Shown piece by piece: positions 11,126 to 63,678 of a DNA stretch of 64,000 nucleotides (position 1 is its first letter; each line of letters opens with the position of its first letter). This DNA comes from Ectobacillus antri. GTDB taxonomy: Bacteria; Bacillota; Bacilli; Bacillales; Bacillaceae_G. Made by a program: the position numbers and the translations under genes. The stretch spans positions 62,001 to 126,000 of the forward strand of contig NZ_RIAV01000006.1 of the NCBI RefSeq assembly GCF_003852715.1, given 5' to 3'. The notes below the pieces were generated by a model. That model was not told the origin of the DNA, did no database searches, and saw nothing but the letters and a program-made list of their open reading frames with translations.

Positions 11126-12241
11126 TTGACCAAGAATACGTTATACGCAGGACTTCGTCTGCTATTTGTTTTGAGCGCAATATATGCCATTATTCACCTA
11201 CTGTTTTACTCATCCGGGCTCATTTATCCCTTTATTATTGCATTCATCATCGCGTACCTCATTAATCCCATTGTCAACTTTTTAAACAAAAAGTCTCACA
11301 TTCCGCGCGCACTAGCAGTATTTCTGACTCTTGTGCTTATTTTTGGAGCTCTAGTTGGTATCGTAACACTGCTTATCATCGAAACTATCGCTGCTTTAAA
11401 TTATTTGTTAGCTATTCTTCCGGAACAATTTCCTCGCCTTGCAGCGTACATCCAAGATGTATTTGTCCACAATATTATGCCGCTGTACAATGATTTAAAC
11501 ATGAGATTCAACCGCCTTGGTGAATCTCAACAACAAACCATTACAGAGAACATCCAGAACTTAGGAATTGATTTAACAAATAAAGCAAAGTTACTTTTAA
11601 CAGGAATTATCACCGGACTAACAAGCTTTTTAGGTGCACTTCCCAACATTGTTACCGTGCTCATTTTTATTTTACTTGCTACGTTTTTTATCAGCAACGA
11701 TTGGTACAGGATGGCATATGGTTTAGAACGAGCCCTCCCCGGAAAACTGCAAGGATACGGACAAACTATTTTTGAAGACTTACGAAAAGCATTATTTGGG
11801 TTTATTCGCGCTCAATTTACCCTTATTTCTATGACTACTATTATTGTATTAGTTGGCTTGCTTCTGCTCCGCGTCCCTTACGCCATTACCATCGCATTGA
11901 TTACCGGCATGGTAGATCTACTTCCCTACCTAGGTACTGGCGCGGTATTTGTGCCATGGATTTTATATGTATGGTTTACAGGTGATACCGCCTTTGCCAT
12001 CGGTTTGCTCATTTTGTATGTTGTTGTTATTATTCAAAGACAACTTATGGAACCAAAAGTACTTTCTTCCAATATAGGTCTTGAACCACTTCCTACTTTA
12101 ATTGCACTTTTCGTAGGTTTTAAGCTATACGGACTGCTTGGTCTTATTATTGGTCCTGTTGTGCTGGTCGTATTAAAAACACTGTACGATGCACGTGTGT
12201 TTCACGATTTGTGGGTATTCATAAAGGGGAAAACGCAATAA
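11126..12241 (+). CDS. ytvI: AI-2E family transporter YtvI
   Basis: Multispanning protein of 371 residues in the AI-2E/PerM (UPF0118) family; the B. subtilis counterpart is annotated as a sporulation integral membrane protein. Evidence: an N-terminal pair of helices (LFVLSAIYAIIHLLFYSSG; YPFIIAFIIAYLINPIVNFL), a soluble middle region, then the family core PYAITIALITGMVDLLPYLGTGAVFVPW and the C-terminal LGLIIGPVVLVVLKTLY. It starts at TTG with GGGAGGAGAGCTA upstream. Transported substrate unknown. A copy of a palindromic repeat lies just downstream. Confidence 0.88.
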   Translation: MTKNTLYAGLRLLFVLSAIYAIIHLLFYSSGLIYPFIIAFIIAYLINPIVNFLNKKSHIPRALAVFLTLVLIFGALVGIVTLLIIETIAALNYLLAILPEQFPRLAAYIQDVFVHNIMPLYNDLNMRFNRLGESQQQTITENIQNLGIDLTNKAKLLLTGIITGLTSFLGALPNIVTVLIFILLATFFISNDWYRMAYGLERALPGKLQGYGQTIFEDLRKALFGFIRAQFTLISMTTIIVLVGLLLLRVPYAITIALITGMVDLLPYLGTGAVFVPWILYVWFTGDTAFAIGLLILYVVVIIQRQLMEPKVLSSNIGLEPLPTLIALFVGFKLYGLLGLIIGPVVLVVLKTLYDARVFHDLWVFIKGKTQ

Positions 12242-12308: not shown

Positions 12309-12462
12309 AAAGAGGCTGAAACAAAAGGTTTTTGACCAAAGAAAAGTCCGAACTATTAGTCAGAATTCTCTACTCAGAATTCCATTTAGTTCGGACTTTT
12401 TATTTATTCTCTATTCTTTCGATTTTAGAGTTACATGATTTAGTTATGTCCTAGCCTCTTTT
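12309..12462. repeat. Palindromic repeat family, copy 1
   Basis: About 154 bp, bounded by AGAGGCTGaaACAAAAGG and its imperfect complement GTCCTAGCCTCTTTTT. Read on the minus strand it aligns along its length with 25879-26040 and 61197-61359. The inner hairpin AAAAGTCCGAACTA / TAGTTCGGACTTTT (12342-12355 and 12387-12400) has T tracts both ways and could terminate transcription from either side. It fills the gap between convergent ytvI and fxsA. Confidence 0.85.
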
Positions 12463-12497: not shown

Positions 12498-12875
12498 TTA
12501 AAAGACTTGCTTACGCCTTATTTGCGCTTCCATTTTCTTTAAAATAAGCTGTTTAACCGGCACTCTCGTTGCAGAAAGCAACAAGATAACTCCTGCTATG
12601 TCGGTTACGTATCCGGGTGTCATAAGTAATATACCACCCACTAAAATACAAATACCATCCAATACAGCATCACCTGGTAGTTCTCCGCGCTCCATACGCG
12701 TGCGTATGTCCTGCAATAACGATGTACTTTGTCGTTTCGCTAAAAATGCTCCGATTACCGCCGTTACAATCATAATGGCGAATGTAGGTATCGCTCCGAT
12801 CCATTGTACTGATGTCAACAATACGAACACTTCCGTCGCCGGTATTAGAATCAATAATAAGACCAATAGCTTCAT
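12498..12875 (-). CDS. fxsA: FxsA family membrane protein
   Basis: A protein of about 125 residues with membrane helices (LLVLLLILIPATEVFVLL; AIPTFAIMIVTAVIGAFLAKRQ; DGICILVGGILLMTPGYVTDIAGVILLL). The motif GGILLMTPGYVTDIAG is the FxsA signature; E. coli FxsA suppresses F-exclusion of phage T7 and its cell role is unclear. Two in-frame ATGs are only six bases apart; the second (12875) has the better spacing to GGGGGA and fits the family N-terminus. It lies just upstream of pfkA-pyk's terminator. Confidence 0.85.
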   Translation of the reverse strand: MKLLVLLLILIPATEVFVLLTSVQWIGAIPTFAIMIVTAVIGAFLAKRQSTSLLQDIRTRMERGELPGDAVLDGICILVGGILLMTPGYVTDIAGVILLLSATRVPVKQLILKKMEAQIRRKQVF

Positions 12876-12891
12876 CTTCATCCCCCTATGA

Positions 12892-25291: not shown

Positions 25292-25570
25292 TTCCTTCCC
25301 TCCTTTTTATATCTATCATTATATACGAAAAGACTTCATCTATCAGAATATTTTCGCTAAAATAAGAAGTAATGAACGAAGAACTGTTTTTAGATTGGAG
25401 AGAAGAATGGGCGCTATGCTGTTGTCATTGGGGATTATAAGATGTTCGTGTTAGGTATTCGCTGTATATCCCATTCCCTTAGGCAAGGACTAATGCTGCA
25501 AGTAATCCAATTTTCTTTCTCGTTCAAGAAGAATATTTGTTTTCCATTAACCACAAATGGGGGATTATGC
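25292..25570. other. Gap upstream of ytpI
   Basis: 279 bases between nrnA and ytpI. An open frame runs into ytpI from 25442, but it has no ribosome site and the extra residues do not resemble YtpI. No other signal was recognised. Confidence 0.4.
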
Positions 25571-25870
25571 ATGCTTATTTTCGTATTTTTAATCATCGTT
25601 TCATTTGTACTTTATTTATTCTACAAAACAAGATATTTTCGAACGCAGCGCCCAATGGAAAAACGTTGGTTGTCCGGAAAATCAGGAATTGCACTAGGGC
25701 TCTTTGTCGCATTCTTTGGTGTGAATCAGTTTTTTGTATGGGACACGACCACAAGCCGTGTTGTAGGCGCAATTTTCCTTATATACGGAGGATTAGTTGC
25801 TTATAATGGATTTCGTCAGTATAAACATTTTCTTCCGCTCGCTATTAAGGAAGCTGAAGAGTTGAAATAA
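25571..25870 (+). CDS. ytpI: YtpI-like membrane protein
   Basis: 99 residues with three membrane helices (MLIFVFLIIVSFVLYLFYK; IALGLFVAFFGVNQFFVW; VVGAIFLIYGGLVAYNGF) and a basic, then acidic C-terminus. Length, the LFYGLNQ-like FFGVNQFF and synteny with nrnA and ytoI support YtpI, of unknown function. The open frame starts 43 codons further upstream; ATG at 25571 after ATGGGGGA is the likelier start. A palindromic repeat copy follows the stop codon. Confidence 0.75.
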   Translation: MLIFVFLIIVSFVLYLFYKTRYFRTQRPMEKRWLSGKSGIALGLFVAFFGVNQFFVWDTTTSRVVGAIFLIYGGLVAYNGFRQYKHFLPLAIKEAEELK

Positions 25871-25878
25871 GAAAACAC

Positions 25879-26040
25879 AAAGAGGCTGGGACATAACTGA
25901 AGTAACTTTAAAGACGAGAGAATAGGGAATAACTGATACTAATAAAGGAAAAATCCGAACTAAATCGAGTTCTGTGTGAAGAATTCCGACTAATAGTTCG
26001 GATTTTTCTTTGGTTGAAAACCTTTTGTCCTATCCTCTTT
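25879..26040. repeat. Palindromic repeat family, copy 2
   Basis: About 162 bp, bounded by AAAGAGGCTGGGACATAAC and the imperfect complement CTTTTGTCCTATCCTCTTT. The inner hairpin AAAAATCCGAACTA / TAGTTCGGATTTTT would terminate in both directions. It fills the gap between convergent ytpI and ytoI and ends 10 bases before the ytoI stop codon. Confidence 0.88.
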
Positions 26041-26050
26041 TCATATGGCA

Positions 26051-27364
26051 TTAACGATCAATAAGCTGTACCATTAACAATGCTTTACCAACCACATCAC
26101 CCTCTTGATATACCTCGACATCAACCTTTCCAAATTTGCGACCAATCTCCATGACATTCGGTGTAACTTCAATCACTGTATCAATTTGAATGGGTTTAAC
26201 AAAGTAGATGGTTAAGTTTTCAACAATCAGATCTCCTTTTTTATAAGAACGAAGTATCCGGTTTGTTGCTTCGGTAACAATTGTTGTAAATACACCATAT
26301 GACAGTGTCCCGATTGAGTTTGTCATTTGCGGTGTTACAGAGAAACGATATACATTTTCAGTTTTTGCTTCTTTTGTATTTATGAATTGATTGGTTACAA
26401 TATCTTCAATCGTTTCTCCAACCTGTGGCTGGCGTTGAATCATCTGAAGTGCTTGCAATACATCCTGCCTGCTGATAATACCTTGTAAACGATTGCCCTC
26501 ATCAACAACCGGCAACAATTCAATTCCTTCCCAAACCATCATACGCGCCGCAGATGCCACAGAAATTTTTCCACTGACTGTAATCGGACTTTTAGTCATT
26601 ACCTTTTCAATCAGTGTATGAACCGGCACCCCAATTACATCTTTAGATGTAATCATACCAATTACTTTCATGCTGTCATCAACAATCGGATAGCGTCCAT
26701 GCATCGTTTGCTCATTATGACGATGCCACTGCTCGACTGTATCCTGCGGCTTTAGAAAAATCGTTTCTTCAAGGGGCGTTAAAATGTCCTCTACTAGTAC
26801 AATTTCTTTTTTTATGAGTTGATCATAAATGGCACGATTGATTAATGTTGCCACTGTAAATGTATCATAGCTACTTGAAATAATCGGCAACTTCAATTCG
26901 TCTGCAAGGCGCTTTACATGTTCTTCTGTATCAAAGCCACCTGTGATTAAAACTGCCGCACCGGCTTCAAGTGCCAATTGATGCGCCTGTGTACGATTCC
27001 CAATAATCAGTAGATTTCCTGCTCCTGTATACCGCATCATAGCTTCGAGCTTCATGGCACCGATAACAAATTTGTTCAGCGTTTTATGTAAACCCTCTCT
27101 TCCACCAAGCACCTGACCGTCAACAATGTTGACAACTTCTGCATAGGTGAGCTTTTCAATGTTTTCTTTCTTTTTCTTTTCAATGCGAATGGTACCCACA
27201 CGTTCAATCGTACTTACATAGCCTTTATTTTCCGCATCTTTAATCGCTCTGTAGGCAGTTCCCTCGCTGACATTCAAATCCTTTGCGATTTGCCGGACCG
27301 AAATCTTGTGTCCTACCGGCAAGCTGTTGATATGTTCTAATATTTGATTATGTTTCGTAGCCAA
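26051..27364 (-). CDS. ytoI: YtoI: HTH-DRTGG-CBS-hot-dog protein
   Basis: 437 residues in four parts: an N-terminal helix-turn-helix (VGHKISVRQIAKDLNVSEGTAYRAIKDAENKGYV), a DRTGG domain (about 70-180, GNRTQAHQLALEAGAAVLITGG), two CBS domains (HGRYPIVDDSMKVIGMITSKDV; GIELLPVVDEGNRLQGIISRQDV) that usually bind adenosyl nucleotides, and a C-terminal thioesterase-like hot-dog (FSVTPQMTNSIGTLSYGVFTTIVTEATNRIL). It looks like a nucleotide- and acyl-CoA-responsive regulator; real function unknown. Starts at TTG with GGTGA six bases upstream. Confidence 0.88.
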   Translation of the reverse strand: MATKHNQILEHINSLPVGHKISVRQIAKDLNVSEGTAYRAIKDAENKGYVSTIERVGTIRIEKKKKENIEKLTYAEVVNIVDGQVLGGREGLHKTLNKFVIGAMKLEAMMRYTGAGNLLIIGNRTQAHQLALEAGAAVLITGGFDTEEHVKRLADELKLPIISSSYDTFTVATLINRAIYDQLIKKEIVLVEDILTPLEETIFLKPQDTVEQWHRHNEQTMHGRYPIVDDSMKVIGMITSKDVIGVPVHTLIEKVMTKSPITVSGKISVASAARMMVWEGIELLPVVDEGNRLQGIISRQDVLQALQMIQRQPQVGETIEDIVTNQFINTKEAKTENVYRFSVTPQMTNSIGTLSYGVFTTIVTEATNRILRSYKKGDLIVENLTIYFVKPIQIDTVIEVTPNVMEIGRKFGKVDVEVYQEGDVVGKALLMVQLIDR

Positions 27365-56169: not shown

Positions 56170-56430
56170 TAAAATAAAAAAATCGCCCCTAAAAAGGGAC
56201 GATTTTATAATCGCGGTACCACCCTAGTTGTGACATGTATGTCACCACTTGATTTCCATAACGGCTTTAACCGTTCTTTTCCTCCTAAGCACATGCTCAT
56301 TCGAAAAAGAATGCTCCAGGATGTAATTCATGTTTGACTTTGTACCGATTCACACCAACCACCGGCTCTCTTATAACAGTGAGTCAACCACTACTGTAGC
56401 CTTTCAACGCTTATTTATTGACTTGATATA
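56170..56430 (-). ncRNA. T-box leader of tyrS
   Basis: On the minus strand the diagnostic T-box GGTGGTACCGCG (56212-56223) is followed by a hairpin AATCGTCCC / GGGGCGATT plus TTTTTTT (56174-56206), the terminator that competes with the antiterminator. Stem I sequence upstream includes AGAGAGCCGG and a specifier-like GAATTACATCC, in which TAC is a tyrosine codon. Uncharged tRNA-Tyr would therefore allow read-through into tyrS. Confidence 0.9.
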
Positions 56431-59394: not shown

Positions 59395-60030
59395 ATGATT
59401 GTAGAAGAAATCATGAATAAGCACGTCATCACATTAAGCCCTGCGGACACGATTGAAACAGCACTGCGCACACTTACCGCTAAAGGCATTCGGCACATTC
59501 CCATTGTGACCGCAAATCAGGAGGTCGTTGGCATTATATCCGACCGGGATGTAAGAGATGCTTGTCCTTCTATTCTTGATGAGCACATTTGTAATGATAC
59601 GCTAAAACAACCGATCCAGCGCATTATGACACAGCCGGTTATCACTTGCCACCCACTTGATTTTGTTGAAGAAATCGCTACGTTTTTTTATGATAATAAA
59701 ATTGGCTGCTTACCTGTCACACAAGCTGGCAGCCTTGTCGGTATCATTACTGAGACAAATGTTCTGCATACACTCGTTGAGTTAACAGGCGCTCATCAGC
59801 CCGGATCACAGATTGAAGTACAAGTAGAAAATATACCAGGTATATTAAGTAGAGTCGTAGCGGTATTTGCCAAAGAACATGTAAATATCGTAAGCGTTCT
59901 TGTATATCCAGCTAAAGATGAAACGCAAAAAATCTTAGTATTTCGTATTCAGACTATGAATCCCCTAAAAATTATTAATCAATTGCGCGGAGAAGGCTAC
60001 CACGTATTGTGGCCGAACACAACTTTCTAA
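59395..60030 (+). CDS. acuB: AcuB, CBS-ACT domain protein
   Basis: 211 residues: two CBS domains (IMNKHVITLSPADTIETALRTLTAKGIRHIPIV; IMTQPVITCHPLDFVEEIATFFYDNKIGCLPV) and a C-terminal ACT domain (EVQVENIPGILSRVVAVFAKEHVNIVSVLVYP). CBS domains usually bind adenosyl ligands and ACT domains amino acids or other small molecules, so AcuB is likely the sensor part of the AcuABC system. AGGGGGCGCACGA precedes the start. It overlaps acuC through TAATG. Confidence 0.93.
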   Translation: MIVEEIMNKHVITLSPADTIETALRTLTAKGIRHIPIVTANQEVVGIISDRDVRDACPSILDEHICNDTLKQPIQRIMTQPVITCHPLDFVEEIATFFYDNKIGCLPVTQAGSLVGIITETNVLHTLVELTGAHQPGSQIEVQVENIPGILSRVVAVFAKEHVNIVSVLVYPAKDETQKILVFRIQTMNPLKIINQLRGEGYHVLWPNTTF

Positions 60031-61193
60031 TGGACAGCGTATTTATCTACTCAGAAGCTTTTCAAAGCTATCGCTTCAGTGATGAGCATCCGTTCAACCA
60101 ACTTCGTGTCAGACTCGTATACGATTTGTTGCAAAAAGGGGGATTCATTCACGAATCGCAAATCGTATCTCCGCGTATGGCAACAGATGAGGAAATCGCA
60201 CTTATTCATGATAGCGCATACATTGAAGCTGTAAAAAAAGCTGGAAAAGGACTACTTGATAAACAAAGCGCTTTGCCTTATGGACTAGGTACAGAGGATA
60301 CACCTATTTTTCCAGATATGCATGAAGCCAGCGCTTGGCTTGTTGGAGGCACTTTAACTGCTGTGGACTATGTCTTAGAAGGTAAAGTAAAGCATGCTTT
60401 AAACCTTGGTGGTGGATTACATCACGGCTTTAAAGGAAAAGCGTCCGGCTTTTGCATTTATAATGACAGTTCCATTGCTATTGAATACATCCGGCGTAAA
60501 TATGGTCTGCGCGTTTTATATGTTGATACTGATGCCCATCATGGCGATGGCGTTCAGTGGTCTTTCTATGATACGCCGGATGTTTGTACCTTCTCTATGC
60601 ATGAAACAGGACGCTATTTGTTTCCAGGCACAGGAGCTGTAACCGAAAGAGGACATGGTCCCGGTTACGGTTATTCCTTTAATGTACCGCTCGATGCATT
60701 TACCGAAGACGATTCTTTCTTAGAAACGTATCGTACGATGATGCATGAAGTAGCTGCGTATTTTAAGCCAGATGTTATTCTTACACAAAATGGTGCTGAT
60801 GCGCACTATTACGATCCGCTAACGCATCTGTGCTCTACCATGCGTATCTATAAAGATATTCCGAAGATTGCACATGAAATAGCTCATCAGTACTGCAACG
60901 GTCGCTGGATTGCAGTTGGTGGAGGCGGCTATGACATGTGGCGAGTAGTACCGAGAGCTTGGTCCTTAATCTGGCTTGAAATGCAGGAGCAAGCCGTGTC
61001 AGGACTGCTTCCTCCTGCATGGATTGAAACTTGGAAGCCTCATGCCAAAACCCCTATTTGCCTGAATTGGGAAGATTCAGAAAATATGTATACACCCATT
61101 CCAAGAAAAAGTGAAATTGAAGAAAAAAATCGTTTAACAATGCTTAAATCCTTGGAAATTATACGATCCAATATGAAAAATAGCATGTTGTAG
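60030..61193 (+). CDS. acuC: Protein deacetylase AcuC
   Basis: Zinc-dependent class I-like histone deacetylase homologue that reactivates AcsA. 387 residues. The charge-relay and metal motifs are intact: GGGLHHGFKGKASGFCIYND, VLYVDTDAHHGDGVQWSFYDT, and PDVILTQNGADAHYYDPLTHL, with GGGGYDMWRVVPRAW late. The start at 60030 forms TAATG with the acuB stop; it has no good ribosome site, so translation is coupled. An in-frame GTG at 60009 is the alternative. A palindromic repeat copy follows directly. Confidence 0.93.
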   Translation: MDSVFIYSEAFQSYRFSDEHPFNQLRVRLVYDLLQKGGFIHESQIVSPRMATDEEIALIHDSAYIEAVKKAGKGLLDKQSALPYGLGTEDTPIFPDMHEASAWLVGGTLTAVDYVLEGKVKHALNLGGGLHHGFKGKASGFCIYNDSSIAIEYIRRKYGLRVLYVDTDAHHGDGVQWSFYDTPDVCTFSMHETGRYLFPGTGAVTERGHGPGYGYSFNVPLDAFTEDDSFLETYRTMMHEVAAYFKPDVILTQNGADAHYYDPLTHLCSTMRIYKDIPKIAHEIAHQYCNGRWIAVGGGGYDMWRVVPRAWSLIWLEMQEQAVSGLLPPAWIETWKPHAKTPICLNWEDSENMYTPIPRKSEIEEKNRLTMLKSLEIIRSNMKNSML

Positions 61194-61196
61194 ATG

Positions 61197-61359
61197 GAGG
61201 CCGGGACATAACTGCATTATGTCACTCTAAAGCCGACAGAATAGAGAATAACGAACACTCATAAAGGAAAAATCCGAACTCAATCGAATTCTGTGTAGAG
61301 AATTGCGACTAATAGTTCGGATTTTTCTTTGGCTGAAAACCTTTTGTCCCAGCCTCTTT
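61197..61359. repeat. Palindromic repeat family, copy 3
   Basis: About 163 bp starting at GAGGCcGGGACATAAC, three bases after the acuC stop codon, and ending at CTTTTGTCCCAGCCTCTTT. The inner hairpin AAAAATCCGAACT / AGTTCGGATTTTT is a bidirectional terminator shape. It lies between convergent acuC and the chemoreceptor gene. Confidence 0.9.
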
Positions 61360-61491
61360 CTTTTTGCTCTGTTAAAGTTCATTGTTGATTTCTGTTACGG
61401 AGCCTCCCTTTGACTTGCTTTTCCCGCAGGAGTCTCATCCCTTCACGCCAATCAACACGTGCCAATTAGCAACATCAGGATTTAAAATAGC

Positions 61492-63477
61492 CTATATTTT
61501 AAACCTACCAATCATATTCTGTAGCTCTTCTGCCATTTCGGATAAAGCAATCGATGCATCGTTCATTTCTTTAATCGAAGCAGATTGCTCTTCAGAAGCA
61601 CTAGCGATGCGCTGCGTACCAGAGGCATTTTCATTTGCCGCAGCTGCAATTTCATTAACAGCTGCTTCTAAATTGATAGAGTCCATAGTCATACGCTGCA
61701 CCGTAATCACCATGCCTTCCACCTGCGTTGCGATTGTTTCGGTAGACTTTAGAATTTCTTCGAAGCTTTGTTCAGTTTGCAGCGCAATCTGCAATCCTGA
61801 CTGCACCTCATTATTAACTTGCTTCATTGTGGAGACCGTCAAGTGAACATCTTGTTGAATCTCATTAATAAGCTTTCCAATTTCATTTGAGGAACTTGCA
61901 GATTGTTCTGCCAGTTTTCGCACTTCATCGGCAACAATAGCAAATCCCCTGCCATGTTCTCCTGCTCTTGCTGCTTCTATCGCTGCATTCAAGGCAAGTA
62001 AATTGGTTTGATCCGCAATTCCTTTAATCGCTTCTAGGATTGCTCCGATTTGTTTAGACTTCTCGTTCAACAACCCAATTACGGCATCGGATTCATGAAC
62101 GGAACGATGGATGGATTGCATTTGCGTAACCGTTTCTTTCACCATCGTACCACCGCTTTGCGCCTTTTGTTTTGTGTATACAGACGACTCTGAAATAACT
62201 GCAGATCCTTCCGATACACGCTGGATGCCGTTTGTTACTTCTTGAAGTAACTCCATACCTGCCGCAACACTCTTTGTTTGATGCTCTACGCCGCTTGAAA
62301 CTTGCTCCATTGCATGTGTGATTTGTTGCGTTGTTTCATTAGCTTGTATGACGCTTGCTGTTAGCTCTTCAGAAGATGCAGCTACCATCCCTGCTGATGC
62401 ATTAATTTGTGAGATTAAAGTTCGCAAAGACTGTGCCATTTCATTAAAACTTGTTGCAAGCTGTCCAACCTCATCGCTAGATCTTACAACAATTGTTTCA
62501 GTAAGATCACCTTCACTAATCTTCTGAGAAGAAGCTAATAAACGTTTCAATGGTCTTGTAACTGTCATGATTAGAAGATAAATACCAACACCGCCAATTA
62601 CAACAGAAGCCCCAATCACTATTAAAATTTTAAATAGTGTCGGTCCGGCAGCATCAGAAACCTCCTTATCATACATAGTACCGATAATTTTCCACCCCGT
62701 ATTTTCGTCTGTTTGGAATGTCATTTTACGCTCTTGACCTTGATACGTATAAGATAATATCCCTTCCGTTTTCTTATATACCGTGTTCATAAAATCTTCG
62801 TCAACTACAGTACCCGGCTTTAACGTAGGATGTACAATAACCTTTTTATCTCCTGTAAAAATAGATACATAGCCTTCCTTACCAACCTTAACTTGAGAAG
62901 CTAATTTTTTAATACTCTTCACATTAAAATCTATCGCAACCACTCCGCTACCATCAGTCGTTTTCTTAGCTAAAGTGATAACCGTATCTCCGGTAACTGC
63001 ATCCTTATACGGATCTGTAATAATAATCTCTCCTGGTTTTTCCATTGCTTGTTTATACCAAGGGCGCTCCTTATGATTATAACCGGAAGGAAGTTGTTGC
63101 ATCGGCATCATGGCAAATGTACCATTTTCTCCCCCTGTATATACAGATTGTATTTCTGAGTGAAGCTTAATGTATTTATTAAAGTCCACTTTAATTGCTA
63201 ACATACCTTCCTCTGTTTCATAAGTAGACTTACCAATCGTTGCCGTCATGATGTTCAAATCATTAAACTTATTCTCGATATCTCTACTAATAACGTTCTC
63301 GAGCACATCTACATTCACTTTCGCATTTCTTAAAATCTCTTTCTCAAGACTATCTTTTGTTTCAGTATAAGAAATACCACCTATTGCGACACCAGCTATG
63401 ATAAAAATTGCAAAAAACGGAAATAAGAGTTTTTTTCCAATAGTCTGTTTGGCAAATAGGTTCCTTATAATATTCAT
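61492..63477 (-). CDS. Methyl-accepting chemotaxis protein
   Basis: Membrane chemoreceptor, 661 residues. First helix near 15-38 ([20 protein letters not shown]), an extracytoplasmic double-Cache sensor ([53 protein letters not shown]), second helix ([24 protein letters not shown]), a HAMP domain ([19 protein letters not shown]) and the signalling coiled coil with the CheA/CheW tip [34 protein letters not shown]. The ligand is unknown; Cache sensors often bind amino or organic acids. ATG at 63477 is chosen over GTG at 63486, which overlaps the ribosome site. Confidence 0.93.
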
Positions 63478-63678
63478 AAAACTCACACCCTTCTATATTT
63501 CTTTTCTCGACATATCCATGTAGATTGTGCAGTGTACTCACTTTCTTGTGAAATTAGTTTCATCAGCAGGTTATTTGAAAGTATCTTTATCACAAATAAT
63601 GATTCCTCTATTACACTTTTTGAAATAAAGATATTGTCGCGCGCCATTACTCTAAGTAACAAGTCCACTCTATTGTGA

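Follow-up and report, generated by a model that had tools for sequence, protein, structure and literature searches.

A short repeat with IS1182-type ends and a predicted bidirectional terminator stands where terminator hairpins stood in Ectobacillus antri

The stretch of Ectobacillus antri DNA analysed here (64,000 nucleotides, hereafter the window) carries three copies of a palindromic repeat, each in a gap between genes whose 3' ends face each other (Table 1). An initial annotation had singled out the repeat by its common ends and middle hairpin; all three copies are indeed found and can be aligned over their full length, but their true edges, running from GAGG to CCTC, lie a few bases inside the limits first drawn. 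Domain matches fit the names that had been proposed for the flanking genes (ytvI/fxsA, ytpI/ytoI and acuC/chemoreceptor) and each pair is convergent; no coding role was found for the copies, which had been said to encode nothing. In the consensus, the left end GAGGCYGGGACATAAC is followed by a spacer of about 50 bp, the inner hairpin AAAAATCCGAACTA...TAGTTCGGATTTTT, a short spacer and the right end TTTTGTCCCAGCCTC. Folding of copy 3 reaches z scores of -6.35 and -7.66 on the two strands relative to dinucleotide shuffles, and 0 of 200 shuffles were equally stable. An Rfam scan of the window at gathering scores returned no match at the repeats; its sole match is a T-box leader (RF00230, 152 bits) at 56192-56416 on the minus strand. 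A GC-rich repeat (CCGCAGGAGTCTCA, 61365-61480) adjoins copy 3, and another form of it lies at the matching place in the sister genome described below.

Table 1. Copies of the element in the window, their predicted terminators and flanking genes, and loci with a nested repeat discussed in the text
Feature	Position	Strand	Length	Context or domains
Copy 1 of the element	12312..12458	-	147 bp end to end	between ytvI and fxsA
Copy 2 of the element	25882..26037	+	156 bp	between ytpI and ytoI
Copy 3 of the element	61197..61356	+	160 bp	between acuC and the chemoreceptor gene
Inner hairpin of copy 1	12342..12400	-		with A-tract and T-tract; predicted bidirectional terminator
Inner hairpin of copy 2	25949..26007	+		predicted bidirectional terminator
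Inner hairpin of copy 3	61268..61326	+		predicted bidirectional terminator
ytvI-like gene, AI-2E transporter family	11126..12241	+		3' end towards copy 1; PF01594
fxsA gene	12498..12881	-		3' end towards copy 1; PF04186
ytpI gene	25442..25870	+		3' end towards copy 2; PF14007
ytoI-like gene, DRTGG-CBS-thioesterase protein	26051..27364	-		3' end towards copy 2; PF07085, PF00571, PF03061
acuC-like gene, histone-deacetylase family	60009..61193	+		3' end towards copy 3; PF00850
Chemoreceptor gene	61492..63486	-		3' end towards copy 3; PF00015, PF02743
Nested-repeat loci	L080 1490-1870; L297, L299-L307, L108, L112; L312, L315, L317-L319			

The genome as a whole contains at least 41 copies of about 160 bp. 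Forty were obtained in a search that scored 40 of 50 candidates and the 41st (C56:74309, which is copy 1 of the window) in other searches; the true number may be higher, and the figure excludes shells whose insides differ (L067, L080 and C1:303559). Short, non-coding and in many cases near-identical (median 5.6% from the consensus), the copies have the appearance of a MITE. A one-pattern search of 80 named loci around ytsJ gave no copy. The YtsJ protein encoded in the window shares 89% identity with its counterpart in Bacillus sp. 165 and 88% with the one in Ectobacillus funiculus. The convergent setting seen in the window is not the rule everywhere: 27 copies occupy convergent gaps, 14 tandem gaps and none divergent gaps, as called by a home-made, hexamer-based gene finder on 1.5-kb flanks with approximate element edges, and the first description of three copies, each between convergent genes, is therefore accurate for the window but not for the genome. 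Nevertheless, the even spread over gap types that would have spoken against a preference is not what we find, the background in the 53 adjacent gaps of the window being 10 convergent, 33 tandem and 10 divergent (enrichment in convergent gaps, Fisher P 5e-6; depletion in divergent gaps, Fisher P 0.004). The distance from the element to the 3' end of at least one neighbouring gene is no more than 20 bp at 35 of the 41 copies, and in 14 convergent gaps this is true of both neighbours, so there is little space for a second terminator. Among the excluded shells, L067 (1500-1600) has the same ends, but they enclose an inner hairpin quite unlike that of the element, AAAAAAGTGAAATCG...CGATTTCACTTTTTT; this suggests a modular build in which ends and inner terminator can be exchanged; L080, also in this genome, holds a GC-rich insert of about 190 bp.

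What stands at these places when the element is absent can be read from a complete congeneric genome (G002, the sister genome), which is syntenic and about 93% identical (90-94% where aligned with the window). It has only two copies, both at sites that are occupied in E. antri too (L091/L007 and L105/L012). At 38 mapped sites (two mapped directly and 36 of 37 further flank fragments, L053 being unmapped) the element is present in E. antri and absent from the sister genome, so the empty sites in close relatives that the initial annotation had proposed to look for do exist, as they should for a MITE. At these sites the sister genome has an ordinary short hairpin that differs from site to site and is mostly flanked by an A-tract and a T-tract; E. 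antri has the same outer flanks, usually with the tracts kept, and the element in place of the hairpin. For the three copies of the window, the hairpins of the sister genome are AAAAAAGACCTTG-CATA-CAAGGTCTTTTTT (copy 1), AAAAGCCGC-AAAC-GCGGCTTTT (copy 2) and AAAAAGCGACGG-CAGC-CCGTCGCTTTTT (copy 3). The exchange is easily followed at L002, where aagacaaaaag-CGTTGCAGTTGGCAACG-ctttttattg in the sister genome corresponds to AAGACAAAAAG-AGGCCGGGACA...GTCCTAGCCT-CTTTTTATTG in E. antri.

This replacement was put in numbers at the 36 sites for which windows were obtained without manual intervention (both sides aligned at 24, one side at 12); L015 and L020 were not windowed, L015 being a swap by eye. 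A hairpin scoring at least 20 and equalled by at most 1 of 200 shuffles is present in the sister genome at 33 of these 36 sites (23/24 of those aligned on both sides, 10/12 of those aligned on one), against 1 of 141 control windows of equal length taken 150-250 bp away (Fisher P 3e-31). L004 falls below the threshold with a weaker hairpin (17.3, 15 of 200 shuffles as good); at L006 and L024, which also fail, the gap in the sister genome contains other DNA as well. At L001, L008 and L010 the difference between the genomes goes beyond the hairpin. In the window itself, six of the seven convergent gaps free of the element could be aligned, the seventh being left out for a large length difference, and in all six the hairpin is recognisably shared by the two species. 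The position of the element coincides exactly with that of former terminator hairpins. The initial annotation had it filling gaps where other convergent pairs have a terminator; it does occupy the position of a terminator, but it stands in place of an earlier hairpin and does not merely fill space. Given the 14 of 41 copies in tandem gaps, its target is the hairpin and not the convergent gap as such. At L247, the counterpart of L009 in the sister genome, the native hairpin GGAATGGGACA...TGTCCTATTCC is close to the element's own ends and is perhaps a very short relative of the element.

The junctions bear on how the exchange came about. Beside the element, both hairpin arms have lost their six loop-side bases at 35 of 36 sites, the exception being L013, where the right arm of the sister's hairpin is retained beside the element and the left flank is unaligned. 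Exact direct repeats of 2-12 bp, such as a target site duplication would leave, are absent from 40 of the 41 copies, and one copy has a repeat of 2 bp. An ordinary insertion beside or inside an old terminator, followed by deletion of the redundant hairpin, could also lead to a swap: redundant terminators should decay, and L013 with its one remaining arm could be a case in point. We consider this history quite unlikely, because the swap is just as clean at little-diverged copies (for example L002 and L005, 2.5-3.1% from the consensus), because independent deletions would need to halt repeatedly at the element's ends, and because the loop-side bases have gone at all but one of the 36 sites and no target duplication has been left behind.

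The direction of the change could also be questioned, the element being ancestral and the sister genome having swapped in short hairpins. The two sites occupied in both species do mean that the element is older than the split, which agrees with such a history; yet it appears extremely unlikely on three counts: (i), the hairpins of the sister genome vary by site and, by eye, do not resemble pieces of the element; (ii), two other congeners have no element and hairpins instead (by eye) in the ytvI/fxsA and ytpI/ytoI gaps, the two sites at which an outgroup was available; (iii), the copies differ from their consensus by a median of 5.6% (range 2.5-13.3%), whereas the two genomes differ at 23.9% of fourfold-degenerate sites (1,118/4,685). 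The last of these differences fits a burst in the lineage of the window after the split that began with one or more older copies. The corresponding two gaps of Ectobacillus funiculus (L118 17605-17815 and 3095-3390) have another repeat, CAACTATGCCTCTGTCTTCGCC / CAACTACGCCTCTGTCTTCGCC, beside a hairpin.

The ends of the element indicate where its mobility may come from. G031, a genome of the same order, has 16 matches to the transposase domain PF13751. One of them, at locus L259, belongs to an intact element of the IS1182 family that is 1,843 bp long, is bounded by the ends AGGCTGGGACATAACT and TTTTGTCCCAGCCT and encodes a 564-aa transposase, which scores 407 bits on the NCBIfam IS1182 model (cut-off 270). 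The repeat and L259 have their ends in common, including the difference between left and right (GGGACATAAC vs GGGACAAAA), as would be expected of a MITE of this family, while L259 differs in its length and its transposase gene; a hairpin lies just inside each of its ends. Judged by these ends, the element belongs with the IS1182 family. Remnants with such ends also occur in G042 and G019. In the genome of the window, a 323-aa transposase fragment (C35), 64% identical to the L259 transposase, lies 154 bp downstream of the start of an end, TGAGGCTGGGACAAAACC, and the sequence then passes into other DNA. A search of this genome for an intact matching transposase found only this fragment and a broken 129-aa remnant (C6); the assembly is a draft of 74 contigs, and an intact copy may therefore be missing from it. 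Two other candidates were set aside, C6:62118 (L254), the first IS1182-domain remnant noticed in this genome, as a partner because its ends differ, and C1:252242 as a domain match because it is below the cut-off. PF13751 had no match in G035, G044 and G058, which have many ends each. The sister genome contains another IS1182-family element (L265, L278 and L283; ends near CAGGCTGTGGAGAAA) with a complete hairpin at both ends that varies by copy, as if the whole target stem-loop had been duplicated and not lost, like pathway b of Wan et al.

Two further explanations can be weighed against these ends. Template switching, or gene conversion, between terminators with A-tract and T-tract ends in common would require no transposase, and the tracts, usually kept (by eye), could act as microhomology. 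This is very unlikely in our view: the six element-free gaps show no exchange of hairpins among themselves, L046 was swapped though it lacks clear tracts, and the ends are those of an IS1182-family element. We give practically no weight to a REPIN-like element moved by a Y1 (RAYT/IS200-type) transposase. The element is palindromic and extragenic, and the genome has seven Y1_Tnp matches, but the four of these loci that were inspected are not accompanied by the same repeats, none having the element's ends at up to 2 mismatches, and the ends match the IS1182-family element instead.

If the element removes terminators, does it bring one? A stable inner hairpin, with an A-tract before it and a T-tract after it, is present in 41 of 41 copies, the composition of a bidirectional intrinsic terminator; a simple terminator scan of copy 2 gave a terminator-like site on the + strand only. 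From the hairpin and its tracts, we predict that transcription terminates there on both strands. The inner stem has diverged by 2.5%, vs 8.6% for the ends and 8.7% for the left spacer, that is about 3.5-fold less than the ends and less than any of 20,000 random column sets; one search pattern lies in the inner stem, though 40 of the 41 copies were found without it, and the searches may have passed over copies whose core has decayed, an omission that would inflate the apparent conservation of the core. We read this pattern as probable selection: the inner stem would be maintained because it terminates transcription of the neighbours, and the ends would be left to decay. A slowly changing inner stem could alternatively result from gene conversion among copies, or from a bias of the search towards copies with a good core.

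We therefore propose, with good confidence, that the repeat is a non-autonomous, IS1182-family MITE that moves by stem-loop-replacing transposition, as IS1272 does, and that carries its own predicted bidirectional terminator. An IS1182-family transposase would act in trans and recognise a stem-loop (cruciform) and not a sequence (we infer both its role and the order of the steps). The element would be joined near the feet of the target stem and the target stem-loop lost, the targets, where they can be read, being intrinsic-terminator-type hairpins at the 3' ends of genes. With its A-tract, hairpin and T-tract, the element would in principle be a terminator on both strands; each insertion would thus trade one terminator for another, which would be why insertions are tolerated and tens of copies could be reached. 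The neighbouring genes probably hardly notice the swap.

Among small dispersed repeats, the bcr repeats of the Bacillus cereus group, named in the initial annotation next to MITEs as a possible likeness, are short, non-coding and palindromic, and can be likened to the element by description only; none of the present results points to a link with them, and in the open-licence literature, no paper was found on bcr1 with convergent genes. SPRITE, BOX and RUP of Streptococcus pneumoniae are also small dispersed repeats, of which SPRITE is terminator-like; here too the likeness is by description only, and the portion of that source available to us does not describe removal of a target hairpin (PMC10969869). 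A much closer precedent is IS1272, itself of the IS1182 family: in the excerpted account of Wan et al. (2017, PMC5678879), its targets are for the most part inverted repeats, variable in sequence, that are lost without target duplication, although among 13 older copies three had no inverted-repeat target and three were unclear, and its ends are modelled to join at the 3' feet of two stem-loops. The element resembles IS1272 in that its inverted ends are about 16 bp long, its stem-loop targets vary in sequence, the target is lost (33 of 36 testable sites) and no duplication is left; unlike IS1272, an element of about 1.9 kb with a transposase gene in staphylococci, it is about 160 bp long, non-coding, present in at least 41 copies and equipped with its own predicted terminator. 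The before-and-after pairs from the window and the sister genome fit the IS1272 mechanism and would extend it to a non-autonomous element. Insertion into hairpins is likewise a feature of TnSha1 and TnSha2, which are associated with IS1272: for TnSha1, the hairpins were partly deleted and 5 of 7 sequenced targets were terminators confirmed by RNA-seq, according to the sections of Furi et al. at hand (2016, PMC4923244). These transposons are not short non-autonomous elements, since they carry the IS and a resistance-related gene, and the same sections do not describe restored termination (PMC4923244). IS1182 is also listed, in an excerpt, as one of the families over-represented between convergent genes (PMC9208149). 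In the open-licence literature, mostly judged by title and partial text, no report of a terminator-carrying IS1182 MITE was found, and a search with the letters of the element's core sequence gave nothing that was about it by title among the matches listed. Stem-loop-replacing transposition is thus already known from IS1272 and TnSha1 in staphylococci; the terminator-carrying, non-autonomous form is what differs.

The ends are widespread in the order. An exact 15-bp end, GAGGCTGGGACAWAA, occurs in 189 of 397 genomes and 83 of 135 genera, counts that pool full and non-autonomous elements, while a reversed control pattern matched once; G159 has the most exact copies of this end among the 397 genomes (97). 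A comparison in a second family, between G044 and G221, gave a similar picture: at 5 of 6 sites, judged by eye, a same-ended element in G044 corresponds to a hairpin in G221, the sixth site (L316) being unaligned at the junction. The G044 elements measure 307-433 bp at the four sites where both ends are fixed; nine places were fetched, of which one is not an element, one has no end pair, and L319 was omitted from the query. Larger same-ended elements in the genome of the window and in two other families hold a nested GC-rich palindromic repeat of the ACTCCTGCGGGA type (loci in Table 1).

How far this generalises is finely balanced in our judgement: the element may represent a class of mobile elements that live by terminator exchange, with a core kept by selection on the neighbours while the ends decay, and that across the order have repeatedly rendered the terminators of a genome similar to one another, in which case many gene 3' ends there would derive from transposons. 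More than 30 natural before-and-after pairs from one genome and its sister make the rules of target choice, cut position and orientation measurable. A mobile element may in this way avoid harm, destroying a terminator but supplying one, with that part then slow to change. If this is general, terminators would count among the mobile, exchangeable components of a genome, and transposition would have shaped the 3' ends of many genes in the order.
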